DNA of 64,000 nucleotides from Methylocella tundrae (GTDB lineage: Bacteria; Pseudomonadota; Alphaproteobacteria; Rhizobiales; Beijerinckiaceae). The translations under genes were made by a program, and so were the position numbers. The notes under the pieces were generated by a model. The model ran no database searches, was not told the DNA's origin, and saw nothing but the letters and a program-made list of their open reading frames with translations. The stretch is from NCBI RefSeq assembly GCF_038024855.1, contig NZ_CP139089.1:2514501-2578500 (forward strand), written 5' to 3'. Of this stretch, positions 50,420-63,830 are shown piece after piece. Numbering within the stretch: the stretch's first letter is position 1; each line of letters starts with the position of its first letter.

Positions 50420-50551
50420 CATCGTCTCCAGAAGAATGCCGGTCGCGCGGGCGAAAAACCCGCCTGAGCGTTGATCGAAGGGGACAGTCTCTAGGGGCAA
50501 TGGCGGGAGCGCGCAACCGGCGGCGCTCTCATGGCCTGGGGTGATTGTGCT

Positions 50552-51202
50552 TCAAACCTCGTCTTTGAGGTCGACGCGCAGGGCGTAGGGCTCGCTGGCT
50601 TGGATGAGGGCGTTGTGGAGGCTTGCGGCGAAGCTTCGGGCGACGGCGCATTCATAGGCGTGGCCGGCGGTTGTGCGGCGGAGCTGGACGCTCATGCCGT
50701 GCAGCTCGGTGGCGGCGGCGGCGCCTGGCGGGAAGGCGGCCGGGTCGAGGTCGAGGCGGACGAGCTTGACGAGCGCGTCGGCGGCGCGCGGTCCGCTGAG
50801 CCTGAACGCCGTGAAGCCGTGCGAGACGTCGACGACGGTCGCGAGATCGCGCGCCGCCGCGATCAGCGCGGCGCGGCGCGGGGCGCGGTCTTTTCCGCGC
50901 GCAATGGCGTGCCAGCGCGACGGGCCGACGCCGACGAAGGAAAAGCCGCCCGCCTCGACGGTTTGCGGGCCGTCGGCCGGCGCCTGTCCGAACGCCGCGC
51001 CGATCGCCGCGATGAGCTCCGCCGTCCTGCCGCGGCGCGCCTCGATGTTGAAGCGGTCCTCCCCGGCGACCAGCTCCAGCGTCACGCCGGGCGCCGGCGC
51101 CGGCGCGCCAAAACGTCCGGCGCGAAAATAATGCGGCGTCAGTTCCAGGGCGAGCCCGGCCGCGGCGCCGGCCGCATGAGATGTTGCAAAGGGGTCAGAC
51201 AC
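50552..51202 (-). CDS. mgdD: N-methylglutamate dehydrogenase subunit D (sarcosine oxidase gamma-like)
   Basis: A 216-residue protein matching the SoxG family: GITVVDVSHGFTAFRLSGPR-like core (TVVDVSHGFTAFRLSGPRAA), PGAAAATELHGMSVQLRRT, and AYECAVARSFAASLHNAL at the end. The GTG start overlaps the mgdC stop by eight bases (GTGTCTGA), proof of coupling. It is the smallest non-catalytic partner of the heterotetrameric enzyme that oxidises N-methylglutamate. The name follows the mgs-gmaS operon context; alone it would be called soxG. Confidence 0.85.
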   Translation of the reverse strand: MSDPFATSHAAGAAAGLALELTPHYFRAGRFGAPAPAPGVTLELVAGEDRFNIEARRGRTAELIAAIGAAFGQAPADGPQTVEAGGFSFVGVGPSRWHAIARGKDRAPRRAALIAAARDLATVVDVSHGFTAFRLSGPRAADALVKLVRLDLDPAAFPPGAAAATELHGMSVQLRRTTAGHAYECAVARSFAASLHNALIQASEPYALRVDLKDEV

Positions 51203-54170
51203 GGGAGCGCTCGCCTTTCGGATCAACGAAGCAGGAGGCGACGATTTCGGCCGCGACGTCGCCGCCGCGAAGGGGATCGTAAACGCGCACTTTTTCGCCG
51301 ATCCGGTCCGGGCCGCCCGACGCCAGGGCGAGGCCGATCCAGGAGGACAGCGTTGGCGACCAGCAGGCCGAGCTGATCCAGCCAAGATCCGTTTCGGCGC
51401 CAGGAACGGCGCCGGCCGGGATGATATGCGCGCCGCTGCGAATGCGTTGACCGGGATCGAGCGGCCTGACGCCGACGAGGCGCGGCCGGGCCGGATCGAC
51501 GAGCGCCTCGCGCGCGCAAAGGACGCGGCCGACATGATCCTTGTCCTTGGCGAGCGCGCGCGCCATGCCGAGATCATAGGCGGTGGTCTGGCCGTTGATC
51601 TCGCCGCCGGCGGGATGGCCTTTTTCGATGCGCATCACGCCCATCGCCTCGCTGCCATAGGCGACGACGCCATAAGGTTCGCCGACCGCCATGACGCGGC
51701 GGATCAGCGCGTCGCCAAAGCCCGCCGGAACGCCAAGCTCGAAGGAGCGCTCGCCGGAGAAGGACAGCGCGCAAAGGCGCGCCGGAACGCCGCCGCAGAT
51801 CGTGATCTCGGCCGCCCGCATCGGCGGAAAATCCGCCTGGGTGATCAACACCGGCGCGTCGACGAGCGCCTGCAGCACCGCCGGGGATTTCGGCCCGGCG
51901 ATGGCGAGCTGCGCCCAGCCGTCGGTGACCGCCGTGAGGTTGACGTCGAGCTCCGGCCACAGCACCTGCCGGCAATATTGCATGTGCCGGTAGACCGGCG
52001 CCGCGTGCGCCGTCGAGACATAGGCGACATATCTGTCCTCGGCGAAGCGGGCGAACATGCCGTCGTCCTTGAGGAAGCCGTCCTCGCGCAGCATGATGAG
52101 ATAGCCGCAGCGCCCGACCTTGATCGCCGACGGGCGCATGGCGCAGACGAGATCGAGGAACTTTGCCGCGTCCGGCCCCTCGACCTCGACTTTGCCGAGG
52201 GTCGAGACGTCGGTCACGCCGACGCCTGAGCGCACCGCATTCACCTCGCGGTTGGCCGTCGCCAGAAGATCCGCGTCGCCGGCGAGCGGAAAATACTGCG
52301 GCCGCTTCCACTGGCCGGCGTCGACGAAGGGCGCGCCGCGCTCCAGCGCATAGGCGTGGATCGGCGTCTCGCGCAAAGGCTTGAAGGCGCCGCGCCGGTG
52401 CGCGCCGGCGACGGCGCCGAGGGCGACCGGAACCACCGGCGGGCGCGCCAGCGTGACGCCGGTCTGCGGGATCGACTGGCCGGTCAGCTGCGCCATGATG
52501 GCGAGCGCGTCGAGGTTTGCGGTGCGGCCCTGGTCGGTCGCCATGCCGAGCGTCGTATAGCGCTTCAGATGTTCGACCGAGCGATAGCCTTCGCGATGGG
52601 CGAGGATGACGTCGGAGGCGGTGACGTCGTGCTGGAAATCGACGAACACCCTGGCGTCCCCGCCCCGGCCCGGCCGCCACCAGGCGGGCGCTGATCCCGC
52701 CGCGCTGTGCCGGATGGCGGGAAGCTCGACCGGCTTGACCGGGAGGCCGAGCGCCTGCAGGGCCGCAGAGCCCGCGTCGGCGCCGCTTTTCAGCGCCTCG
52801 CCCGGCGCGAAGACGCCGGCCGCCGCCCCCGCCATGTGAAGGCCGTCGACGCCAGGGGCGAGGAACGCCTGGATCTTGTCGGACCAGGCCGGACGGCCGC
52901 GAAAACAGCTCGCAAGCTGAATAGAGGGGTTGAAGCCGCCCGAGACGGCGAGCGCGTCGACGGCGAAGTTTTGCGCGGCGCCCGATCCTTTGACCGTAAT
53001 GGCGCTGAGGCCTTTGCGCCCTTGCGTGGCGACGACGGCGCCATTGAGCACGACGGGAACGGCCTTCGCCACATCGGCGAACTCCGCCGGCGCCTTTTCG
53101 CGCGCGTCGATGACGACGACCGGAGGGAGCCCCGCCTTGATGAGGTCGCGCGCGGTGAGCCAGCCGTCGTCGGTCGCCGTATAGACCGCGATTTGGCGGC
53201 CCGCGGCGACGCCGAAGCGGTTGAGATAAGACCGCACGGCGCCGGCCAGCATGATCCCCGGCCGGTCATTGTCCGGGAACGCCAAAGGCCGCTCGCTCGC
53301 GCCCGTCGCGATAATGGCGCGGCGGGCGGCGATGCGCCAGAAGCGCTGGCGCGGCGTGAAGGGCGGCGGCTCCGGCAGATGGTCGGCGACCCGCTCCAGC
53401 GCCGCGAACACGCCGCCGTCAAAAGCCGCGACGACGCTGGCGCGCGAAAAAACGCGGACATTCGGCATGGCGGCGAGTTCGGCGGCGACGGAGTTCACCC
53501 ATTGGGCGGCCGGCTGGCCGCCGACGCTCTCGCGCTCATCGAGAAGCCGGCCGCCAAGGCGTGGCTGATCCTCGCAGAGAATGACTTTCGCGCCCGATCG
53601 CCCGGCGGTCAGCGCCGCCATCAGCCCGGCGCCGCCGCCGCCGGCGACAAGCAGGTCGCAATGGGCGTTCGAATGCTCATAGCTGTCCGGATCTTCGAGC
53701 GCGCTGGCGCGGCCGAGCCCGGCGGCGCGGCGAATGACCGGCTCATAGATTTTTTCCCAGAAGGACGCCGGCCACATGAAGGTCTTGTAGTAGAAGCCCG
53801 CCGCGAACACCGGCTTCAACAGGCCGTTCAGCGCCATGACGTCGAAGCCGAGCGAGGGCCAGCGGTTCTGGCTCGACGCGACAAGGCCGTCGTAGAGTTC
53901 GATCGTCGTCGCCTTGACGTTGGGTTCGCGGCGCGCGCCGGAGCGCAGTTCGACGAGCGCGTTCGGCTCCTCGTGCCCCGCCGAGAGCACGCCGCGCGGA
54001 CGATGATATTTGAACGAGCGGCCGACGACGCGCACGCCATTGGCGAGCAGCGCCGAGGCCAGCGTGTCGCCGGCGCAGCCTTGATAGCTCCTGCCGTCGA
54101 ATGTGAAGGACAGCGGGCGCGAGCGGTCGATGAGGCCGCCGGAGCCCAGCCTGAAGCCGCCGCCGCTCAT
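51195..54170 (-). CDS. mgdC: N-methylglutamate dehydrogenase subunit C (sarcosine oxidase alpha-like)
   Basis: The 991-residue alpha-type subunit starts at ATG 54170, overlapping mgdB by four bases. Order of parts: an N-terminal ferredoxin-like domain (SYQGCAGDTLASALLANGV), a dinucleotide-binding region near residue 170 (LLVAGGGGAGLMAALTAG), a second nucleotide site with ARRAIIATGASERPLAF, and a C-terminal GcvT-like tetrahydrofolate-binding region (about 600-985; RCGYLIMLREDGFLKDDGM). The folate part receives the C1 unit as methylene-tetrahydrofolate. Length equals SoxA of heterotetrameric sarcosine oxidase. In this context it is assigned to the N-methylglutamate pathway. Confidence 0.9.
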   Translation of the reverse strand: MSGGGFRLGSGGLIDRSRPLSFTFDGRSYQGCAGDTLASALLANGVRVVGRSFKYHRPRGVLSAGHEEPNALVELRSGARREPNVKATTIELYDGLVASSQNRWPSLGFDVMALNGLLKPVFAAGFYYKTFMWPASFWEKIYEPVIRRAAGLGRASALEDPDSYEHSNAHCDLLVAGGGGAGLMAALTAGRSGAKVILCEDQPRLGGRLLDERESVGGQPAAQWVNSVAAELAAMPNVRVFSRASVVAAFDGGVFAALERVADHLPEPPPFTPRQRFWRIAARRAIIATGASERPLAFPDNDRPGIMLAGAVRSYLNRFGVAAGRQIAVYTATDDGWLTARDLIKAGLPPVVVIDAREKAPAEFADVAKAVPVVLNGAVVATQGRKGLSAITVKGSGAAQNFAVDALAVSGGFNPSIQLASCFRGRPAWSDKIQAFLAPGVDGLHMAGAAAGVFAPGEALKSGADAGSAALQALGLPVKPVELPAIRHSAAGSAPAWWRPGRGGDARVFVDFQHDVTASDVILAHREGYRSVEHLKRYTTLGMATDQGRTANLDALAIMAQLTGQSIPQTGVTLARPPVVPVALGAVAGAHRRGAFKPLRETPIHAYALERGAPFVDAGQWKRPQYFPLAGDADLLATANREVNAVRSGVGVTDVSTLGKVEVEGPDAAKFLDLVCAMRPSAIKVGRCGYLIMLREDGFLKDDGMFARFAEDRYVAYVSTAHAAPVYRHMQYCRQVLWPELDVNLTAVTDGWAQLAIAGPKSPAVLQALVDAPVLITQADFPPMRAAEITICGGVPARLCALSFSGERSFELGVPAGFGDALIRRVMAVGEPYGVVAYGSEAMGVMRIEKGHPAGGEINGQTTAYDLGMARALAKDKDHVGRVLCAREALVDPARPRLVGVRPLDPGQRIRSGAHIIPAGAVPGAETDLGWISSACWSPTLSSWIGLALASGGPDRIGEKVRVYDPLRGGDVAAEIVASCFVDPKGERSRV

Positions 54171-54448
54171 GACGCCTGCTCCGGCGCCCGCGTCGCCTCG
54201 ACCTTCAAAATGTCGTGCGTGCGCGTGTCGCGCTCGATGAGAAGCCAGCTCTGGCATCCCGCCGCGTGGAACCAATGTTCGCGGTGGAGCCCGGCCGGGT
54301 TGTCGCGCAGATAGACGGCCGTGGCGAAGGCGGCGCGGCTCGCGGCGCTGTCGAGGCCGCCGTCGGCGCCGGGCCGCGCCACGGCTTCGCCATTGACCGC
54401 GAACTCGGCAAGGTCGCGCGGCCCGCAATAGGGACACTGGATCAGCAT
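54167..54448 (-). CDS. mgdB: N-methylglutamate dehydrogenase subunit B (sarcosine oxidase delta-like)
   Basis: A 93-residue SoxD-like protein starting MLIQCPYCGPRDLAEF, with the zinc ligands CPYCG and a downstream HAAGCQSWLLIERDT (Cys and His). The conserved LRDNPAGLHREHWFH pattern is typical. It binds zinc and is part of the heterotetramer. It overlaps mgdC by the sequence ATGA. Confidence 0.93.
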   Translation of the reverse strand: MLIQCPYCGPRDLAEFAVNGEAVARPGADGGLDSAASRAAFATAVYLRDNPAGLHREHWFHAAGCQSWLLIERDTRTHDILKVEATRAPEQAS

Positions 54449-54502
54449 GCGTCAAAACCTTGTGCCGGGCGCCGGTGACGATCATTCATGACGATTATCA
54501 TC

Positions 54503-55753
54503 TCAATGCAGATTGGGCGACGGACCGGCGCCCTTTTCATCGATGACGCGGCCGCTTTCGAAACGGTCGAGCCGGTAGGCCGCGGCGGCCGGATGCGGCT
54601 CGCCTTTGGCGATCAGATGCGCGAAGCAGAAGCCCGCCGCCGGCGTCGCCTTGAAGCCGCCGTAGCACCAGCCGCCATTGAAGAACAGCCCGTCGACCGG
54701 CGTCCTGTCGATGATCGGCGAGCCGTCCATGCTCATGTCCATGAGGCCGCCCCAGCTGCGCAGAATGCGCAGGCGCCCGAGCATCGGCATCAGGGCCATG
54801 GCGTTTTCGGCGACGTCGGCGAAGATTGCGAGGCTGCCGCGCTGCGCATAGGACGGATAGGGCTCAAGATCGCCGCCGAAGACGAGGCTGCCCTTGTCCG
54901 ATTGCGAGATGTAAAAATGCCCGGCGCCGAAAGTGACGACGCAGTCGATCACCGGCTTCAGGCTTTCGGACACAAAGGCCTGCAACGCATAGCTTTCGAT
55001 CGGCAGCCGCAGTCCGGCGAGCGAGGCCACGCGGGACGAGTTGCCGGCGACCGAGACGCCGACGCGCCGCGCGCCGATAAAGCCTCGCGTCGTCTCGACG
55101 CCGATGATCTTGCCGTTCTCCTGCCTGAGGCCGGTGACTTCGCAGTTCTCCACGATGTCGACGCCGCGCCGGTCGGCGGCGCGCGCATAGCCCCACACCA
55201 CGGCGTCGTGGCGCGCCGTGCCGCCGCGCCGCTGCAGCAGGCCGCCCTGCACCGGGAAGCGGGCGTTGTCGAAATCGAGATAGGGCGCCATTTTCCGCAC
55301 GCCCTCGCGGTCGAGCAGCTCCGCGTCGACGCCATTGAGCCGCATGGCGTTGCCGCGCCGCGCGAAAGCGTCGCGCTGCGCGTCGCTGTGACAGAGGTTG
55401 AGCACGCCGCGCTGCGACACCATGGCGTTGTAGTTGAGGTCCTGCTCCAGCCCCTCCCACAATTTCATGCCGAGTTCATAAAAAGGGATGTTGCCGGCAA
55501 GCAGATAGTTCGACCGGATGATCGTCGTGTTGCGTCCGGCGTTGCCGGAGCCGATCCAGCCTTTTTCGATCACCGCGACGTCGCGGATTCCGAATTCCCT
55601 GGCGAGATAATGGGCGGTGGCGAGGCCGTGGCCGCCGCCGCCGATGACAATCACGTCATAGGCCGCCTTCGGCTGCGCCTTGCGCCAGTGCGGCGTCCAG
55701 CCGGCGCCGCCGTTCAGCGCGTTCTTCAAAAGCTCAAAGCCGGAGAATGTCAT
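54503..55753 (-). CDS. mgdA: N-methylglutamate dehydrogenase subunit A (sarcosine oxidase beta-like)
   Basis: A 416-residue FAD-dependent oxidoreductase: the DAO fold begins at YDVIVIGGGGHGLATAHYLA (GxGxxG near residue 35), followed by GWIGSGNAGRNTTIIRSNYL as in SoxB. The C-terminal GWCYGGFKATPAAGFCFAHL closes the FAD site. It carries out the amine oxidation of N-methylglutamate. It lies between gmaS (70 bases upstream) and mgdB (54 bases), consistent with one operon. Sarcosine is the alternative substrate by family, but gmaS/mgsABC next door favour N-methylglutamate. Confidence 0.92.
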   Translation of the reverse strand: MTFSGFELLKNALNGGAGWTPHWRKAQPKAAYDVIVIGGGGHGLATAHYLAREFGIRDVAVIEKGWIGSGNAGRNTTIIRSNYLLAGNIPFYELGMKLWEGLEQDLNYNAMVSQRGVLNLCHSDAQRDAFARRGNAMRLNGVDAELLDREGVRKMAPYLDFDNARFPVQGGLLQRRGGTARHDAVVWGYARAADRRGVDIVENCEVTGLRQENGKIIGVETTRGFIGARRVGVSVAGNSSRVASLAGLRLPIESYALQAFVSESLKPVIDCVVTFGAGHFYISQSDKGSLVFGGDLEPYPSYAQRGSLAIFADVAENAMALMPMLGRLRILRSWGGLMDMSMDGSPIIDRTPVDGLFFNGGWCYGGFKATPAAGFCFAHLIAKGEPHPAAAAYRLDRFESGRVIDEKGAGPSPNLH

Positions 55754-55823
55754 CCGTCATATCTTTCGGCGCGGATTTGTGATCGACGCGGGCGCCGCGC
55801 GCCGGCGCCCATGAGGCTGCGTT

Positions 55824-57125
55824 TCAGCAATCCAGCGTGTGGTCGCGCTCCCAGTCGCTGAGATGGCGCGTATAGTCCTGCCATTCCTGGTGCTTGAGCT
55901 TGGCGTAGGAGCTGACGAAGGACTCGCCAAGGCCCTCCTTGACGATCTTGGAGGATTCGAAGAGACGGAGCGCGTCGAGCAGATTCTGCGGCAGCTTCTT
56001 CGCGCCATTGACCTTGTGCGGCTCGGCGTACATGTCGAAGTCGGAGCGCTCGCCCGGATGACGGTTGCTCTTCATTCCGTCAAGGCCGGCGACGAGGACG
56101 CTGGCCTGCAGCAGATAGGGATTCGTCGCGCCGTCGGCGAGGCGGAACTCGAAGCGTCCGCCTTCGGGAATGCGGATCATATGCGTCCTGTTGTTGCCGG
56201 TGTAGGTGATCGAGTTCGGCGCCCAGGTCGCGCCGGAGGTGGTGCGCGGCGCGCTGAGGCGCTTGTAGGAGTTGACCGTCGGATTGGTGAGGGCGCAGAG
56301 CGCGTCGGCGTGCTCCATCAGGCCGCCGAGGAAACGGTAGCCGAGCTCCGAGACGCCAAGCTCGCCGTCCTTGTCTTCAAAGGCGTTGTCCTCGCCGCGC
56401 CAGAGCGACACATGCGAGTGGCATCCAGAGCCGGTCAGATTGAGGAACGGCTTCGGCATGAAGGTCGCCCGCATGCCGTGTTTCTCGGCCAGCGACTTCA
56501 CCATATATTTGAAGAAGGAGTGCCGGTCGGCGGTCTTCAGCGCCTCGTCATATTCCCAGTTCATCTCGAACTGCCCGTTGGCGTCCTCATGGTCGCTCTG
56601 ATAGGGCTTCCAGCCGAGCTCGTCCATCGCTTCCGAGATCTCGGTGATGACCTCATAGCGCCGCATCAGCGCCTGCTGGTCATAGCAGGACTTCGCCTGC
56701 TTGTCGGCGCCGTCCGCGATGCAGGAGCCGTCGGGCGCGAGCAGGAAAAACTCGCATTCGACGCCGGCCCGCATCTCATAGCCAAGCTCTTTCAGTTCGG
56801 CGATGAGGCGCTTCAGCACATTGCGCGGGCCCTGATCGACCGGCTTGCCTTCCATGTAGAGATCGGCGGCGAGCCAGCCGACTTCCCGCTTCCACGGCAG
56901 CTGGATGAGGCTGTCCGGATCCGGCACCGCGAACATGTCCGGCATGGCGGGCGTCATATCGAGCCAGGTCGCAAAGCCCGCAAAGCCCGCGCCGTCGCGC
57001 GCCATCTTGTCGATCGCCCGCGCCGGCACCAGCTTGGCGCGCATGTGGCCGAACAGATCCGTGTAGGATACCAGGAAGTTCTTGATGCCGCGCTCCGCGG
57101 CGACTTCCGATAGCAGGGTCGACAT
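55824..57125 (-). CDS. gmaS: Gamma-glutamylmethylamide synthetase (glutamine-synthetase family)
   Basis: A 433-residue enzyme of the glutamine synthetase fold, shorter than type I GlnA. Visible are YEMRAGVECEFFLLAPDG (metal-binding Glu), the SDHEDANGQFEMNWEYDEA motif, TGSGCHSHVSLWR (ATP/metal) and the NSITYTGNNRTHMIRIPEGG region. It ligates methylamine to glutamate with ATP, giving gamma-glutamylmethylamide. The ATG at 57125 has GGAGAGG five bases upstream. A strong inverted repeat lies 47 bases upstream of the start. Context (mgsC before, mgdA after) separates it from ordinary GS-like ligases. Confidence 0.92.
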   Translation of the reverse strand: MSTLLSEVAAERGIKNFLVSYTDLFGHMRAKLVPARAIDKMARDGAGFAGFATWLDMTPAMPDMFAVPDPDSLIQLPWKREVGWLAADLYMEGKPVDQGPRNVLKRLIAELKELGYEMRAGVECEFFLLAPDGSCIADGADKQAKSCYDQQALMRRYEVITEISEAMDELGWKPYQSDHEDANGQFEMNWEYDEALKTADRHSFFKYMVKSLAEKHGMRATFMPKPFLNLTGSGCHSHVSLWRGEDNAFEDKDGELGVSELGYRFLGGLMEHADALCALTNPTVNSYKRLSAPRTTSGATWAPNSITYTGNNRTHMIRIPEGGRFEFRLADGATNPYLLQASVLVAGLDGMKSNRHPGERSDFDMYAEPHKVNGAKKLPQNLLDALRLFESSKIVKEGLGESFVSSYAKLKHQEWQDYTRHLSDWERDHTLDC

Positions 57126-57171
57126 AAGCTTCCTCTCCAAATATTGTGACCGTTGGTTGGCCGATACGAAC

Positions 57172-57197
57172 CTTCGAATTGTTCAAGCAATTCGAAG
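57172..57197. promoter_or_regulatory. Perfect inverted repeat upstream of gmaS
   Basis: CTTCGAATTG, six-base loop TTCAAG, CAATTCGAAG: a perfect 10-bp stem in the 104-base space between mgsC and gmaS. It is AT-rich relative to the region and has no T run, so it is less like a terminator and more like an RNA-processing, attenuation or protein-binding site that tunes GmaS relative to MgsABC. Confidence 0.6.
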
Positions 57198-57229
57198 TCC
57201 ACAGCTGAGGCGACGTGGGTCTGCGCCCG

Positions 57230-58564
57230 CTATCGTTCTCCGGCTCCCGGAATCCACGACGTCCCGGCGAGCGGAACGCCGGCCATGGCGGCGGCCTCCA
57301 CCGTCAGCGCCACAAGATCCTCCGGCTCGAGATTATGCACATGGCTCTTGCCGCAGGCGCGCGCAATGGTCTGCGTCTCGAGCGTCAGCACCGACAGATA
57401 ATTGGCGAGCCGGCGCCCGGCCGCGATCGGGTCAAGCCGCTTTGCGAGCTCGGGGTCCTGCGTCGTGATGCCGGCCGGATCGCGCCCTTCATGCCAGTCG
57501 TCATAGGCGCCGGCGGTCGTGCCAAGGGCCTGATATTCGGCCTCAAGATGCGGGTCGTTGTCGCCCAGCGCGACGAGAGCCGCCGTGCCGATCGAGGCGA
57601 CGTCCGCGCCAAGCGCCAAAGCCTTGGCGACGTCGGCGCCGTTGCGGATGCCACCCGAGACGATGAGCTGCACCTTGCGGTGCATGCCAAGGTCGCGCAG
57701 CGCCTGCACGGCCGGCCGGATCGCCGCCAGAATCGGAATGCCGACATGTTCGATGAACACTTCCTGCGTCGCCGCCGTGCCGCCCTGCATGCCGTCGAGA
57801 ACGATCACGTCGGCGCCCGCCTTCACCGCCAGCGCGGTGTCGTAATAGGGCCGCGACGCGCCGACCTTCACATAGATCGGCTTCTCCCAGTCGGTGATCT
57901 CGCGCAGCTCCTCGATCTTGATTTCGAGATCGTCCGGCCCGGTCCAGTCGGGGTGGCGGCAGGACGAGCGCTGGTCGATGCCTTCCGGCAGCGTGCGCAT
58001 CTCGGCGACGCGCTTCGAGATCTTCTGGCCAAGCAGCATGCCGCCGCCGCCCGGCTTCGCGCCCTGTCCGATCACCACCTCGATGGCGTCCGCCCGGCGC
58101 AGATCGTCGGGGTTCATGCCATAGCGCGAGGGCAGATACTGATAGACGAGGATCGAGGAATGGCCGCGCTCCTCCTGCGTCATGCCGCCGTCGCCGGTTG
58201 TCGTCGACGTGCCAACCACCGAGGCGCCGCGCCCCAGCGCCTCCTTCGCCTGCGCCGAGAGCGAGCCAAAGCTCATGCCCGCGATGGTGATCGGGATCTT
58301 CAGTTCGATCGGCTTCTTGGCGAAGCGCGCGCCGAGCACCACCGAGGTGTCGCATCTCTCGCGATAGCCCTCGAGCGGATAGCGCGACATCGAGGCGCCG
58401 AGAAACAGGAGGTCGTCGAAATGCGGAACCTTGCGTTTGGCGCCGCCGCCGCGGATGTCGTAAATGCCCGTCGCCGCCGCGCGCCGGATCTCCGACATCG
58501 TCTGCGGATCGAACGTCGCCGAATAGCGCGGCAAGGTGCGCGGGATACGAATCTGATCGTTCAT
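57230..58564 (-). CDS. mgsC: N-methylglutamate synthase subunit C (FMN-binding glutamate-synthase-like)
   Basis: A 444-residue protein with the glutamate synthase FMN/TIM-barrel domain: the loop GQGAKPGGGGMLLGQKIS, Lys in PIYVKVGASRPYYDTALAVK, GADVIVLDGMQGGTAATQEV and LIVSGGIRNGADVAKALALG (FMN phosphate-binding). The conserved Cys in SSCRHPDWTG may belong to an Fe-S site. The start ATG (58564) overlaps the mgsB stop by one base (TGATG). It converts gamma-glutamylmethylamide or methylamine plus glutamate to N-methylglutamate with MgsA and MgsB. Confidence 0.93.
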   Translation of the reverse strand: MNDQIRIPRTLPRYSATFDPQTMSEIRRAAATGIYDIRGGGAKRKVPHFDDLLFLGASMSRYPLEGYRERCDTSVVLGARFAKKPIELKIPITIAGMSFGSLSAQAKEALGRGASVVGTSTTTGDGGMTQEERGHSSILVYQYLPSRYGMNPDDLRRADAIEVVIGQGAKPGGGGMLLGQKISKRVAEMRTLPEGIDQRSSCRHPDWTGPDDLEIKIEELREITDWEKPIYVKVGASRPYYDTALAVKAGADVIVLDGMQGGTAATQEVFIEHVGIPILAAIRPAVQALRDLGMHRKVQLIVSGGIRNGADVAKALALGADVASIGTAALVALGDNDPHLEAEYQALGTTAGAYDDWHEGRDPAGITTQDPELAKRLDPIAAGRRLANYLSVLTLETQTIARACGKSHVHNLEPEDLVALTVEAAAMAGVPLAGTSWIPGAGER

Positions 58565-59271
58565 CAATAGGCCCCCGCATTGTCGACATGGAAATGGTAG
58601 AGCGCGCGCGCCGAGCCGTAGCGCCTGAACTCGCCGACGTCGACTTCGCCCGCCGCGCCCGCCCGCTCCAGCGTCGCGTAGAGCTCGGCGCGATGCATGT
58701 CGTCCATCGGCTTTTCGACGCAGTCCGCGCCAAGGCTCTTCACCGCGCCGCGCACATAAAGCTTCGCCTCATAGATCGAATCGCCGAGCGCGTCGCCGGC
58801 GTCGCCAAACACGGCGAGCGTCCCCGCCTGCGCCATGAAGGCGGACATCGGCCCGATCGAGCCCTTGACGATAATGTCGACCCCCTTCATCGAAATGCCG
58901 CAGCGCCCCGAAGCGTTGCCCTCGATGACGATGGCGCCGCCATGCGCCGTCGCGCCCGCCGCCTGGCTGGCGTCGCCCTTCACATAGATGAGGCCCGACA
59001 TCATATTCTCGCCAAGGCCAAGCCCGGCGCTGCCGTTGACGATCACCGTCGCGCGCTTGTTCATGCCGGCGCAGTAATAGCCGACGTCGCCGTCGATCTC
59101 GATCGTCACGTCGGCGTCGACGCCGGCCGCCACGGCGTGCACGCCGCGCGGATTGAGAACCTGCCAGCGCGCGACATTGCCGCCTTCCCTGATCGCGTGA
59201 AGGGCGGCGTTGAGTTCACGCACCGAAGTCGCGGCGAGGTCGACCGCTTTCGCTGAAAATTGAGTGGTCAT
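58564..59271 (-). CDS. mgsB: N-methylglutamate synthase subunit B (GXGXG-domain)
   Basis: A 235-residue protein homologous to the beta-helix GXGXG domain at the C-terminus of glutamate synthase. The repeated pattern is visible (GYYCAGMNKRATVIVNGSAG, GLGENMMSGLIYVKGDASQA, GGAIVIEGNASGRCGISMKG, MDIIVKGS-like turns). It has no catalytic cofactor of its own and scaffolds the complex. The start overlaps the mgsA stop by four bases and the end overlaps mgsC, so the three genes are translationally linked. Confidence 0.92.
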   Translation of the reverse strand: MTTQFSAKAVDLAATSVRELNAALHAIREGGNVARWQVLNPRGVHAVAAGVDADVTIEIDGDVGYYCAGMNKRATVIVNGSAGLGLGENMMSGLIYVKGDASQAAGATAHGGAIVIEGNASGRCGISMKGVDIIVKGSIGPMSAFMAQAGTLAVFGDAGDALGDSIYEAKLYVRGAVKSLGADCVEKPMDDMHRAELYATLERAGAAGEVDVGEFRRYGSARALYHFHVDNAGAY

Positions 59272-60167
59272 GCGGCGCGGTCCCAGAAATAGACGGTGGC
59301 GGGATTGGGCTCGAAGACGCGGGCGTTTTCGATGCCCGGCAGGCGGCTCAGAGCGCGATATTCGGTGCCGAACGCGACATATTGCTCGGTCTCCGCCATC
59401 ACCGCGTGCTTGCAGCCGATCGGATCGCGCAACACGCCAAAGCCCGTGTCGGTGCCGACCACGAAAGTGTAGAAGCCGTCGAGATCCTTCAGCGAGGCTT
59501 CAAGCGCGCCGCCAAGGCTTTCCCCCTGCGCAAGACGCCACGACAGATAGCCGGCGGCGACTTCCGAATCATTCTCCGTCGCAAACGAAATCCCCTCGCG
59601 CGTCAGCCGGCGGCGCAGCTCATTGTGGTTCGAAAGCGAGCCATTGTGCACAAGGCACTGGTCCTTGCCCGTCGAAAATGGATGCGCCCCAGCCGTCGTC
59701 ACCGCCGATTCCGTCGCCATCCGCGTATGCCCGACGCCATGCGTCCCGCTCATCCGCGAAAGACCGAACCGCCGCGCAACATCCGCCGGAAGTCCAACCT
59801 CCTTGTAAAGCTCCATATGCGAGCCGACCGAACTCACCGTCAGATCATCGTCAAGATCCCCGATCGCCGACAGCGCCAGGCCCGCCTGCTCCGCCGCAAC
59901 CGTCACCACAACATGCGTGCCCCGCGCGACGACGTCGACCTCGCCATCAAGCGCCGAAGCCAGCGATACAGCCAGCGCCCCGGCGTCAAACAAACGCCCC
60001 GCGCGAAGCGTGATCTTGATCCGCTCCGGCGAGCCATCGCCATAAATCGCAAAACCAGCGCTGTCCGGACCCCGCGCCGTCATCGTCTCAAGCATCACCG
60101 CAAGATGCCGGCCAAGATCCGGCTCAAGCGACGGGTCCTTAAGGAACAATCCCACTATGCCGCACAT
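59268..60167 (-). CDS. mgsA: N-methylglutamate synthase subunit A (class II glutamine amidotransferase)
   Basis: A 299-residue Ntn-hydrolase type glutaminase: the nucleophile Cys2 follows the initiator Met (MCGIVGLFLKDPSLEPD), with SGTHGVGHTRMATESAVTTA and QCLVHNGSLSNHNELRRRL motifs as in glutamate synthase N-terminal domains. It releases the methylamine (or ammonia) moiety and channels it to MgsC. GGGAGA is the ribosome-binding site. It is the first gene of the minus-strand operon and faces the permease operon across about 308 bases. Confidence 0.93.
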   Translation of the reverse strand: MCGIVGLFLKDPSLEPDLGRHLAVMLETMTARGPDSAGFAIYGDGSPERIKITLRAGRLFDAGALAVSLASALDGEVDVVARGTHVVVTVAAEQAGLALSAIGDLDDDLTVSSVGSHMELYKEVGLPADVARRFGLSRMSGTHGVGHTRMATESAVTTAGAHPFSTGKDQCLVHNGSLSNHNELRRRLTREGISFATENDSEVAAGYLSWRLAQGESLGGALEASLKDLDGFYTFVVGTDTGFGVLRDPIGCKHAVMAETEQYVAFGTEYRALSRLPGIENARVFEPNPATVYFWDRAA

Positions 60168-60475
60168 CGCTCAAATGTCTCCCGTCGATATTTCGTGTCA
60201 GGAAAATAGACATCGCCGTAAGAAAAATACAAGACCAAAAATGGAGATTTGCGCAAAATATATTCTTGACAGGCAAATCAGGGATGGCCCAGGATTTAGG
60301 AAGTCGTCTTAAGCATTTGAATTCAGTGACTTAGCCTATGATCAAAAGCGCTTCCATCTTAGGCATATCGCCACGAAAATGTGCAACGACTTCTGAATCC
60401 GGTTGACAACGAGCCGAGAGTTGTCTTGTCTTTCGTAAAAAGAAAGAACTGTTCCTAATAAGAATGGAGAGGAAA
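60168..60475. promoter_or_regulatory. Divergent promoter region of the methylamine operon and permease operon, with inverted repeat
   Basis: This 308-base gap is clearly AT-richer than the flanks. It contains GACAAC-GAGCCGAGA-GTTGTC at 60405-60425, a 6-bp perfect inverted repeat with a 9-base centre, and a TTGACA just at its left end (60403-60408). A further TTGACA lies at 60266-60271. These are candidate regulator and promoter sites, but no convincing matching -10 boxes or sigma-54 GG-N10-GC element was found. Shared control of both operons from here is expected. Confidence 0.5.
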
Positions 60476-60778
60476 ATGGCCCAACATGATGACCCGCGCG
60501 TTGACGGGATGTTCCGACGCGACGCCATTGGGGCGCTCGCGGCGGTCGTTCTGGTATGGCTGCTCTACGCTTTCACTTATTACACGCTGTCCGAAGTTTT
60601 CAACCAGCTTGGGTTGAGCGCCCTGATGGGCGGCCTCGCGCTTTGCGTTCTGGTTTTGAACGCATCGTCGATCATCGCGATGATCAAACACTTCAGCGAA
60701 GACAGGACCGCGATCTACAGCCGCGATCTCTACTACCTCGATCTCTTGCGGACCAACCGCGCCGGAGGGTCGAAATAA
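60476..60778 (+). CDS. Small two-helix membrane protein, first gene of the permease operon
   Basis: The 100-residue protein starts MAQHDDPRVDGMFRRDAIGA, with GGAGAGG ahead of the ATG. It has two hydrophobic segments (ALAAVVLVWLLYAFTYYTL and ALMGGLALCVLVLNASSIIA) and a charged C-terminal part (KHFSEDRTAIYSRDLYYLDL). I do not recognise the family. The TAATG junction with the next gene shows coupling. The setting, upstream of an APC permease, suggests an accessory subunit of a transporter. Confidence 0.8.
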   Translation: MAQHDDPRVDGMFRRDAIGALAAVVLVWLLYAFTYYTLSEVFNQLGLSALMGGLALCVLVLNASSIIAMIKHFSEDRTAIYSRDLYYLDLLRTNRAGGSK

Positions 60779-61170
60779 TGGCTTACGAACCTCCGAAGCA
60801 ATCAACCGCTGGCCAGATCTTCGACGCTTTGCTGATGATGGCGCTGGTCATCGTGACCTTGTATGCGCCGCTTCTCCTGAAGCTCGCGGGCGGCGGAACG
60901 ACGACGCAGGAACTCGACGCATCGAGCTGGCGGACTCTCGGTCAGAACGCCGTCATGTCCCAGCAATGGGAGAAACTCGGATTCACACCGGCCACCGCCG
61001 CGCCGATCATCGCCGTCCGCTTCGATTACGTCATCAACTGGGGAACTCTCGCCCTCTCTTTCGCGGTGATTATCGCATACTTCGTTGTTCTCATAAAAAT
61101 ATCCGACAGGCAGTACAAAGATGTGATTGCCGAGCATTTCGGACCAGCGCAGAAAATCAATAAAGTCTAG
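60778..61170 (+). CDS. Small two-helix membrane protein, second gene of the permease operon
   Basis: The 130-residue protein begins MAYEPPKQSTAGQIFDALLM. Two helices (ALLMMALVIVTLYAPLLLKL and WGTLALSFAVIIAYFVVLIK) flank a soluble loop of about 60 residues rich in polar residues (TTTQELDASSWRTLGQNAVM). No known family is recognised. It overlaps the preceding gene by one base (TAATG) and is followed 16 bases later by the third small gene. The loop would face the periplasm if both termini are cytoplasmic. Confidence 0.8.
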   Translation: MAYEPPKQSTAGQIFDALLMMALVIVTLYAPLLLKLAGGGTTTQELDASSWRTLGQNAVMSQQWEKLGFTPATAAPIIAVRFDYVINWGTLALSFAVIIAYFVVLIKISDRQYKDVIAEHFGPAQKINKV

Positions 61171-61186
61171 CTCCAGGGAGGACGAC

Positions 61187-61360
61187 GTGATTCTACTATT
61201 CAATATTGCGGCCTGGAGCGTCTCCGGACTGCTCATGGCCTGGATGCTGTTTGATCTCATTCGCGTTAACAGGCAGTTCGACGAAGACTACCTCTTATCT
61301 TCGCATGAAGGCGATATCGTCGATACCGAAGAGGCCGAGAAGGCGGAGGGGCTGCTATGA
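61187..61360 (+). CDS. 57-residue single-helix membrane protein, third gene of the permease operon
   Basis: Starts at a GTG with GGGAGG upstream, encoding one helix (LFNIAAWSVSGLLMAWMLFD) and an acidic tail (RQFDEDYLLSSHEGDIVDTE). Its stop overlaps the permease start (ATGA), so it is translated with it. It is too short for most gene finders and could be missed in annotations. Function unknown; a KdpF-like stabilising role for the permease is the natural guess. Confidence 0.75.
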   Translation: MILLFNIAAWSVSGLLMAWMLFDLIRVNRQFDEDYLLSSHEGDIVDTEEAEKAEGLL

Positions 61361-62778
61361 ACAAGATCGACACTATTTCGTCGCCCGGCGGCAAGACATT
61401 TGTCCCGTCGGAAAAAAAAGTTGCGCTCTCGCGCGTGCTCGGCCCCGGACATGTCTGGGCGCTCGGCGTCGGCATCGTTCTCGTCGGCGAATTCATGGGC
61501 TGGAATTTCGCCGTCGGCAAAGGCGGCGCCGTCGCCGCTCTGACAGCCTGCTGGCTCGCCGGCATCCTCTATACCTGCGTCGCCATGATCGACTCGGAAA
61601 TTACCTCGACGGTGGCGGCCGCCGGCGGCCAATATGCGCAAGCCAAGCACATCATCGGGCCGCTGATGGCTTTCAACGTCGCCCTTTATCTCGTCATGGC
61701 GTATACGATGCTCGAAGTCTCCAATGCGATTGTCGCCGGAGATCTTCTGCAATCATTCGCCACCGACCTTGGCATTGCCGGCAGCATCGACAAACAGTCG
61801 GTCATTGTCCTGACGATCGTCTTATTATCATGGTTCAATTATCGCGGCGTTCTGGCCACGTTGACGCTGAACCTCATCATCACGGCCATCGCGTTCATCT
61901 CGATCGCCGTCCTGTTCTTCTACATCAAGCCGTGGTCGGACGGTCAAAACGAACAGCTGCACGCGCTGCTGACGGGGCTCCCCTATGGGACCCTCGGCAT
62001 TCTCGCCTCGCTGCACTTTGGGCTTTGGTTTTATTTGGGCATAGAGGGCACGACCCAGGCGGCCGAAGAGGTTCGCTCTCCCGCGCGCTCCTTGCCGCTT
62101 GGAACCATGACCGGCATGATAACCCTGCTGATCGCGGCGACAGCGACCTGGTATATCGGGGCCAGCCTGATGCCATGGGAATATCTCGGCCAGTCGATCA
62201 CGCCGCTTTACGACGCGGCCAAGCTGACGAGCAACAAATATCTTGAGATTTTTCTCTTCTTCGGGACGTTGTTTGCAACATTCGCCTCGGCTAATGGGTG
62301 CATCAATGACGCCTCGCGCGCCTGGTTCGCGATGGGCCGCGACCGTTACATGCCGATCTGGTTCGGCGCCGTTCATCCCAAATATCGCACGCCCTATCGC
62401 TCGGTCGTCTTCTTTGTGCCGATCGCAGTTCTCTTCGCCGTTTCGACGCCGCTCGATCAGACCATCACCTTCTCGATTCTCTCGGGTCTGCTCGGCTACA
62501 CGCTGATGGCGATCAGCATCTTCCTGTTCAGGCGCAAATGGCCGCTGAAAAGCATCGACCGGGGCTATGTGCACCCGTTTCATCCAATACCGTCTCTGCT
62601 GCTCATGCTCCTCTGCTGCCTCGCCTTCTTCGCGGTCTATCTTGGCTACGGCACGCAGCTTCTGGCGATGATGGCCTTCTATATCGTGGCCTCGGCCTGG
62701 TTCGTCCTGCACCGGTATAAATATGTGCGTCGCGGCGACCAGTTCACCATGCCCTGGCCGCGCCCGCAGGGCTACTGA
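61357..62778 (+). CDS. APC-family permease, candidate methylamine/amino-acid importer
   Basis: A 473-residue protein with about twelve membrane helices and the APC opening ALGVGIVLVGEFMGWNFAVG, GWNFAVGKGG substrate-loop glycine motif and LHFGLWFYLGIEGTTQAAEE, close to the ethanolamine/amino-acid permease branch. Substrate is likely a small amine or amino acid. It is divergent from the methylamine operon and preceded by three small membrane protein genes in one transcript, which is unusual for APC carriers, usually single proteins. Import of methylamine or N-methylated compounds is inferred from position only. Confidence 0.88.
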   Translation: MNKIDTISSPGGKTFVPSEKKVALSRVLGPGHVWALGVGIVLVGEFMGWNFAVGKGGAVAALTACWLAGILYTCVAMIDSEITSTVAAAGGQYAQAKHIIGPLMAFNVALYLVMAYTMLEVSNAIVAGDLLQSFATDLGIAGSIDKQSVIVLTIVLLSWFNYRGVLATLTLNLIITAIAFISIAVLFFYIKPWSDGQNEQLHALLTGLPYGTLGILASLHFGLWFYLGIEGTTQAAEEVRSPARSLPLGTMTGMITLLIAATATWYIGASLMPWEYLGQSITPLYDAAKLTSNKYLEIFLFFGTLFATFASANGCINDASRAWFAMGRDRYMPIWFGAVHPKYRTPYRSVVFFVPIAVLFAVSTPLDQTITFSILSGLLGYTLMAISIFLFRRKWPLKSIDRGYVHPFHPIPSLLLMLLCCLAFFAVYLGYGTQLLAMMAFYIVASAWFVLHRYKYVRRGDQFTMPWPRPQGY

Positions 62779-62851: not shown

Positions 62852-63547
62852 ATGGGCGACCCCAATTCGCAGGACCAGGACCACGCGTGGCGGCGATCGA
62901 TTCTACGCGGGCTGGAGCGGCGCTTGTCGACGGCCGGCGCCAAGCGCAAACATCTTTTGGCCGATTGCCTCCCCCTTCTCGAGCGGAGCGAGATCAGGAT
63001 CAGGCCGGATGGCTGGGGAGAGCTTCATGGTTTTGCCGACGGGCGCGCCGTGTCGATTACGCCGTTTTCGGAAACGCTCGCCTTCCGCCGCCTGCCGCAG
63101 CTCTGGATCGCCGTAACGGCCCATTGCGATTTGCGGGCGCGTGGCGTTCTCGACGTCGTCCGTCGATCGACGAATGCTGAATTTTACGCGCCGGCCGCCG
63201 ACTTGCCGACGCGGTTTGCGGCGCCGGCGCAATGGCCGCCCGATACTTTGGTCAAAGGCAACGGCGCCGCGGCGCCCAGCACCCTCGCGCTCCTGACGGA
63301 GCCTCTCTCGCTTCTCTTCGCTGACGCGAGGGTAAAGGAGGCGCTCGTCGCGCCCCGCGGCGTGCGGATCGTCTATCAGGCGCGCGAAGGCGTCAGAGGC
63401 GCCTATCTCCTCTTTCGCCAAAGCCGGTTTAGCGTCGATCGCCTGCACCCGGACGAGGTTTCGCCCCTTATTGCCTCGGCGCAAAGCCTCGCCAGCCTCC
63501 TCTCTTTGCCTCCCACATTGAAAAGGACCGCGCATGCCGCCGTTTGA
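62852..63547 (+). CDS. Uncharacterised soluble protein downstream of the permease
   Basis: A 231-residue protein with no membrane segment. It is basic at the start (AWRRSILRGLERRLSTAGAK) and has a mixed alpha/beta pattern with GVRIVYQAREGVRGAYLLFR near the end. I do not recognise a family. Its start has AGGAAAG upstream and it lies 73 bases after the permease gene on the same strand; it overlaps the next gene by 14 bases, so it may be the fifth gene of the operon. Confidence 0.7.
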   Translation: MGDPNSQDQDHAWRRSILRGLERRLSTAGAKRKHLLADCLPLLERSEIRIRPDGWGELHGFADGRAVSITPFSETLAFRRLPQLWIAVTAHCDLRARGVLDVVRRSTNAEFYAPAADLPTRFAAPAQWPPDTLVKGNGAAAPSTLALLTEPLSLLFADARVKEALVAPRGVRIVYQAREGVRGAYLLFRQSRFSVDRLHPDEVSPLIASAQSLASLLSLPPTLKRTAHAAV

Positions 63548-63830
63548 TCGTCTGGACAGCCGCATAATCCTCGCCGCCGCCATGGTTCTGCCCGGCGTCG
63601 GCCATGTCATGGCGGACCGGGCCGGGCGCGGCCTCGGCTTTGCGTTCTTCACTCTTGTTTTTGCGTGGCTGACGACGAAATTCGCCGCGCCGGACGCAAA
63701 CTTCATCGGCCGCCACGCAGGGGGGCTGTTCGTTTGGGCGCTCTCCCTGACCGATGTCTACCGTATCGCGCGATCAAGAGAGATCCGCGAAGAGCGGAGC
63801 CTTGGCGGGGCGAAGCGCCTTGAGAGATAG
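63534..63830 (+). CDS. Small membrane protein, last gene before the window end
   Basis: A 98-residue protein with a hydrophobic N-terminal half: ILAAAMVLPGVGHVMADRAG, then GLGFAFFTLVFAWLTTKFA, and a third weak segment GGLFVWALSLTDVYRIA, ending in a basic tail. The PGVGHVMADRAGRGLGF pattern resembles small TM2/DUF5683-like proteins with a PGxGH motif. It overlaps the previous gene by 14 bases, so it is probably co-transcribed. Function unknown. Confidence 0.7.
   Translation: MPPFDRLDSRIILAAAMVLPGVGHVMADRAGRGLGFAFFTLVFAWLTTKFAAPDANFIGRHAGGLFVWALSLTDVYRIARSREIREERSLGGAKRLER

Follow-up and report, generated by a model that had tools for sequence, protein, structure and literature searches.

Secondary carriers with a small subunit include MetP/MetS (PF16951) and the SSS carriers that are accompanied by DUF485 or DUF4212 proteins. 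In these systems, as in the locus described here, a short membrane protein is encoded with the carrier, although the carriers are of other families and usually have one small partner. Proteins of the APC fold can also have partners. GerAB has this fold, and belongs to a germinant receptor with dedicated partner proteins. According to published excerpts, the GerA receptor of Bacillus has three components, GerAA, GerAB and GerAC. In GkApcT-MgtS (5oqt, 6f34), the single helix of MgtS, a 31-residue protein from the E. coli expression host, packs on transmembrane helix 5 (TM5) of GkApcT (PMC5803215). With MgtS, GkApcT moved more substrate at a similar initial rate, and the excerpted text of the same paper names SLC7-SLC3 as an APC-fold protein with a partner (PMC5803215). 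Small partners of secondary carriers, and partners of APC folds, are already known in other settings.

We analysed a stretch of 64,000 nucleotides of Methylocella tundrae (contig NZ_CP139089.1, positions 2,514,501 to 2,578,500, forward strand), called the window below, in which three dedicated small membrane proteins (s1, s2 and s3) are encoded beside an APC-family permease. Unlike MgtS, they belong to the same locus as the carrier. They differ from the partners of GerAB in size and domains, and GerA is a receptor rather than a carrier. A preliminary description of the window had called dedicated subunits of an APC carrier unusual; unusual they are, but GkApcT-MgtS, SLC7-SLC3 and GerAB with GerAA and GerAC are precedents. 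We lean slightly towards reading the locus as a dedicated uptake system for methylammonium (methylamine), made of the APC carrier, three small subunits and an accessory protein resembling TtfA. The stronger proposal, that many alphaproteobacterial methylotrophs and rhizobia have as their methylamine permease an APC carrier working only in complex with s1-s3 and the TtfA-like protein, we hold more tentatively, at somewhat short of an even chance. The genes are as follows.

60476..60778, plus strand: s1, a membrane protein of 100 residues without a known family
60778..61170, plus strand: s2, a membrane protein of 130 residues without a known family
61187..61360, plus strand: s3, 57 residues, GTG start
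61357..62778, plus strand: APC-family permease, 473 residues
62852..63547, plus strand: orf231, with a predicted TtfA-like domain
63534..63830, plus strand: orf98, a small membrane protein

These six genes form one unit on one strand. The preliminary description had placed three short genes of 100, 130 and 57 codons, with two, two and one hydrophobic segments, 5' of the permease gene, and our reading and hydropathy analysis agree. It had also described all four genes as joined by overlaps, which holds for s1/s2 (TAATG) and s3/APC (ATGA) but not for s2/s3, where stop and start are 16 bp apart. Its list of parts ended with the permease at 62778 and proved too short: orf231 and orf98, which overlap by 14 bp, also belong, being present in all 27 loci with the APC gene. 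Another Methylocella tundrae contig (L005) carries a near-identical locus, with 97-100% protein identity.

Genome contigs scanned with s2 yielded 28 loci in other genomes, in Methylocella, Methylorubrum (among them M. populi and M. zatmanii), Methylobacterium, Methylopila, Hyphomicrobium, Sinorhizobium/Ensifer, Rhizobium and several metagenome-assembled genomes. The order s1-s2-s3 on one strand was kept in 28/28, with gaps of -4 to +88 bp among s1, s2, s3 and the APC gene. APC, orf231 and orf98 followed the trio in 27 of them, the other (L007) ending at a contig edge. All six genes were likewise found in each of the five plasmid loci examined (22 plasmid records matched), which include Paracoccus aminophilus pAMI6, Aminobacter aminovorans pAA01 and a Paraburkholderia caribensis megaplasmid. 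In a genome of another class (G670), the same six genes adjoin its N-methylglutamate (NMG) pathway genes. A phylum sample (14 of 398) was weighted to close relatives and says little on breadth.

Across the order (397 genomes), 60 genomes matched the s2 profile and 59 a close APC profile (E<=1e-60), every one of the 59 being among the 60 s2 carriers. The APC gene lay 189-319 bp downstream of s2, on the same strand, at 59 of 61 s2 loci; the other two were in G004, where the contig ends, and in a dispersed second set of genes (s1', APC' and s2') in G031. The s1 profile matched 48 of 317 genomes, all of them s2 carriers, and no s2 carrier in this sample was missed, provided that it comprised G000 to G316 as its handles imply. 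s3 adjoins s2 in the 28 genome loci, in 30 loci of the order (L034-L063, whose stretches reach about 1.5 kb to each side and are excluded from the orf231 and orf98 counts) and in the five plasmid loci. The preliminary description had proposed to ask by profile searches whether the small genes keep company with an APC gene in other genomes, as they do, and would have given up the subunit idea had the small genes mostly occurred without one. This was seen in just one of the 60 s2 genomes, at the contig end, and in the one dispersed paralogous set. Given the 60/59 co-occurrence and the short distance between s2 and APC, the subunit idea therefore survives.

The placement of the trio beside the APC gene is more than chance and is not incidental. 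That the permease is an ordinary one and the small genes, unrelated to it, simply use the same promoter is, of the explanations we considered, the most improbable, the co-occurrence, the constant order and the recurrence in another class all speaking against it. The lack of evidence for a physical complex, and the separation of s2' from APC' in the second G031 set, would be in its favour. The multi-subunit permease is what we infer from gene linkage, and the substrate, direction and energetics of transport and the physical complex given below are also to be taken as putative.

The three small proteins have distinct predicted layouts. s1 has hydrophobic segments at 17-35 and 52-70, with both termini predicted to be cytoplasmic. 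s2 combines two hydrophobic segments with a conserved loop, about 50 residues long and predicted to be periplasmic, that bears the motif W..LGQN..QWEKLGFTP..A..I..RFDY. s3 has a single N-terminal hydrophobic segment and an acidic tail with an invariant L.SS.EG; at the same hydropathy threshold, 7/16 aligned rows gave no segment. Identity to the window proteins in 16-row alignments was 25-49% (s1), 40-61% (s2) and 30-52% (s3). Searches of Pfam with 16 members of each family, and of NCBIfam (with only the window protein for s3), gave scattered weak matches and nothing above cut-off; 25 of the 37 weak Pfam matches of s1 were listed, and very remote relatives could escape profile searches. s1-s3 were not matched above the curated cut-off by the small-subunit families PF16951, DUF485 and DUF4212 (PF16951 touched a single s2 member, at E 3.7), and their assignment to ordinary small-subunit families was rejected. 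One s2 row resembled BCCT transporters (E 2.5e-4 in Pfam, 1.1e-3 in NCBIfam), which we took as generic hydrophobic similarity. Profiles of s1, s2, s3, orf98 and orf231 gave no meaningful match in PDB sequence searches. The predicted s2 model (predicted local distance difference test 78, predicted template modelling score 0.38) supports two long and two short helices only, and on these scores was too uncertain as a structure-search query. At least 3021 database proteins belong to the s2 family (8000 candidates scored). Among the 120 listed, none had a transport-related name: all were hypothetical, uncharacterised or nameless, except two named succinate dehydrogenase anchor.

The permease matched PF00324 and PF13520 at 108.7 and 96.8 bits (gathering thresholds 24.6 and 27) over residues 36-436, and is by sequence a member of the APC amino-acid permease family. 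The nearest curated model is the ethanolamine permease TIGR00908, which gave the best E-value for 16/16 APC members; a small amine is a likely substrate here too. The window APC scored 170.1 bits against a cut-off of 381.75, whereas the same genome holds a separate true ethanolamine permease (L002) with 654.5 bits. L002 is also the nearest of the other APC relatives in the genome, which have 21-30% identity. TM1 carries the motif GE[YF]xGW, a definition of our own taken from one true ethanolamine permease, L002 (GEFMGW in the window APC, GEYFGW in L002); G44, E45, G48 and W49 (window numbering) were invariant in 16/16 aligned rows. These comparisons place the carrier near, and outside, the ethanolamine permease family.

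By sequence the nearest solved carrier is GkApcT, with an alignment that spans most of the APC length. In this low-identity alignment, Thr43-Gly44 of GkApcT corresponds to Val43-Gly44 in the window family, and Lys191 to Ala179. In GkApcT, the carboxylate of the substrate is bound through the backbone amides of Thr43 and Gly44, and Lys191 may gain and lose a proton in the transport cycle (PMC5803215). We dropped the idea that loss of Thr43 means loss of the carboxylate site, since backbone amides make the contacts and the Thr side chain is not needed.

The module is divergent from an NMG operon, as the preliminary description had noted, with the mgsA, mgsB, mgsC, gmaS and mgd genes running down from 60167. 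The features on this side are as follows.

60168..60475, no strand: divergent intergenic region between the NMG operon and the module
59268..60167, minus strand: MgsA-like glutamine amidotransferase domain, gene 1 of the NMG operon, whose orthologues adjoin the module elsewhere too
58564..59271, minus strand: MgsB-like protein
57230..58567, minus strand: MgsC-like FMN glutamate synthase, the NMG marker used here
55824..57122, minus strand: GmaS-like gamma-glutamylmethylamide synthetase (ATG start chosen; the open reading frame list gives TTG at 57140)
54503..55753, minus strand: MgdA (sarcosine oxidase beta-like)
51195..54485, minus strand: MgdC (sarcosine oxidase alpha-like)

Of the 60 s2 carriers in the 397 genomes, 57 have MgsC, compared with 69 of the 337 genomes without s2 (Fisher p about 1e-29, in a test that ignores shared ancestry). 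MgsC was called positive at identity >=75%, and the negatives include seven genomes with weaker matches (E 1e-116 to 1e-155). It lay within 20 kb of the module in at least 32 of the 57. Two of the three carriers without MgsC (G308 and G384) have GmaS at 61% and 59% identity.

The module also occurs beside methylamine dehydrogenase (mau) genes. The mauB family (PF06433) was present in 7/60 s2 carriers, the match being a weak one in two of them (112-115 bits). The sole full module of G124, and likewise of G303, lies 1-2 kb downstream of the mau genes found there, with MgsC 108 kb and 1.78 Mb away, respectively; in G031 the extra paralogous set has s1'-APC' upstream and s2' downstream of the mau cluster. 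The G031 mauB, mauE, mauG and MauJ were identified by Pfam; the names of mauD and mauA rest on where the genes lie and how they look, and those of the mau genes in G124 and G303 on similarity to their G031 counterparts (38-62%). NMG and mau, though unrelated as pathways, share methylamine as their substrate. The mau-side modules are a second, NMG-independent argument for methylamine. With 57/60 carriers having MgsC and module copies beside both kinds of cluster, the methylamine link that the preliminary description proposed is strong on gene content and neighbourhood.

Two published studies touch on these genes. In Methyloversatilis universalis grown on methylamine, NMG genes, 'co-clustered conserved proteins' and amino-acid permeases were induced in the transcriptome, according to excerpts of PMC5023235. 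A Paracoccus aminophilus paper describes the NMG genes that adjoin the module there, and its accessible text leaves the module itself unmentioned. In the titles and abstract openings surveyed, which covered few subscription journals, no bacterial methylamine permease gene outside the Amt family was identified. The module is a concrete methylamine permease candidate in Methylorubrum, Sinorhizobium and Paracoccus.

We think it unlikely that the carrier's substrate, inwards or outwards, is a different small amine or an N-methylated compound (ethanolamine, gamma-glutamylmethylamide, N-methylglutamate or sarcosine). The nearest curated family of the carrier is indeed that of an ethanolamine permease, and the plasmid loci of Paracoccus sp. 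MA and Pseudohalocynthiibacter have no methylamine genes in the stretches covered, for which the gene tables are incomplete. Against this stand the separate true ethanolamine permease in the genome, the 170 bits of the window APC against a cut-off of 382, and methylamine as the compound that the NMG and mau pathways are established to have in common.

Besides the ancestry ignored by Fisher's test, several observations weigh against a multi-subunit methylamine permease. G004, a genome rated 100% complete, has s1 and s2 with neither MgsC nor a close GmaS (best 38%). The module is missing from 69 of 126 MgsC genomes, three of them in the window's family, and is therefore not a required part of the NMG pathway; such genomes presumably use methylammonium-conducting Amt proteins or other carriers. 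A module copy lies near mau in three of the seven mauB-bearing carriers, mauB being on a separate contig in the other four (two of them the weak matches). Methylamine dehydrogenase (MADH) is periplasmic, and carbon use by this route needs no import, so the argument from mau is the weaker for it. Little follows from the replacement of Thr43 by Val on its own, since the GkApcT contacts are backbone amides. The second G031 set is dispersed and lacks s3, so the trio is not indivisible, and in G124 one trio serves two permeases.

orf231 has a predicted cytoplasmic domain of the same fold as that of TtfA (6t84), an accessory of MmpL3. The model fitted the multipass translocon chains 7tm3_4, 9i78_4 and 6w6l_7 nearly as well; we take these to be CCDC47, of the PAT complex. 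TtfA, CCDC47 and orf231 are alike in this predicted fold, in their association with a multipass membrane protein (for orf231, by gene linkage) and, for most orf231 relatives, in an N-terminal hydrophobic segment. They are unlike in transporter family and in sequence, the orf231 profile (84 sequences) matching no PDB chain at E<=10 and hence having no detectable homology to TtfA or CCDC47. The N-terminal hydrophobic segment was present in 12/15 aligned orf231 relatives, whereas the window orf231 has no such anchor. In four closer homologues the N-terminus is likewise polar or amphipathic. orf98 has conserved LPG.GHV and GR...G motifs, and 16/16 members showed weak similarity to DUF6677 (best E 0.00085).

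The fit to translocon chains bears on a further explanation, in which the permease carries methylamine but s1-s3, orf231 and orf98 insert, fold or protect it and are absent from the working carrier. This seems to us rather less likely than true subunits, and is the likeliest of the alternatives. The role of CCDC47 in the multipass translocon (PMC9630114, in the excerpts available) would suit it, as would the effect of MgtS on GkApcT, where the amount of substrate rose at a similar initial rate (PMC5803215). The tight coupling and near one-to-one retention of the genes suit stoichiometric subunits at least equally.

Under the subunit reading, the APC protein would be the methylammonium carrier, and s1, s2 and s3 would join it in the course of coupled translation, to stabilise it or to gate it, s2 supplying a periplasmic cap and s3 an acidic tail, probably cytoplasmic. 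orf231 would be a cytoplasmic accessory, acting as TtfA does on MmpL3. Judging weakly from the alignment, Glu45, just past the TM1 stretch that binds carboxylate in amino-acid carriers, might suit a small cationic amine without a carboxylate, and as the putative proton-coupling lysine of GkApcT is absent, uptake may follow the membrane potential. Imported methylamine would feed GmaS and the NMG pathway, or the system would work beside mau. AmtB is shut by GlnK under ammonium excess. With methylamine as the carbon source and ammonium in excess, a carrier unaffected by nitrogen status would be of use. If this reading is true, bacterial APC carriers can be multi-protein machines, with one carrier, three small membrane proteins and a TtfA-like accessory.

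An APC protein with partners could also be a transceptor that senses methylamine, its partners relaying the signal as in GerA spore receptors. The APC fold of GerAB, the three-protein make-up of GerA (GerAA, GerAB and GerAC, in the excerpts mentioned above) and the two-component system that follows APC' in G031 would agree with this. The conserved module has no kinase, regulator or DNA-binding gene, and no Ger domain was among the listed Pfam matches of s1, s2, s3 and orf231 (25 of 37 weak matches for s1), and we regard sensing as very improbable.

Some modules are irregular. G124 (L082) has two tandem APC genes with one trio, in G375 (L087) the APC frame is broken, and in G090 (L086) the s2 match has one internal stop. 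In G031 (L081, G031:C1:547000-565500) the diverged s1'-APC' pair and s2' lie on either side of a response regulator, a histidine kinase and the mau cluster with MauG; s1' and APC' are together, s2' is 10.8 kb beyond, and no s3 was found in this set.

Sigma-54 control of the divergent promoter was considered and rejected. The consensus (<=2 mismatches) had no match in the intergenic region 60168-60475, and its 12 matches across the window were below the 23.5 expected by chance.

The NMG operon occurs twice in the genome. Window positions 50548-60216 match an inverted copy at G000:C3:2810535-2820204 (99.76% over 9670 bp), which looks like a recent duplication. The repeat stops about 260 bp short of s1, and the module itself is single-copy. 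On Paracoccus aminophilus pAMI6 (L064, 17909-21153), the module is followed on the opposite strand by pseudoazurin and an iron-type ABC transporter.
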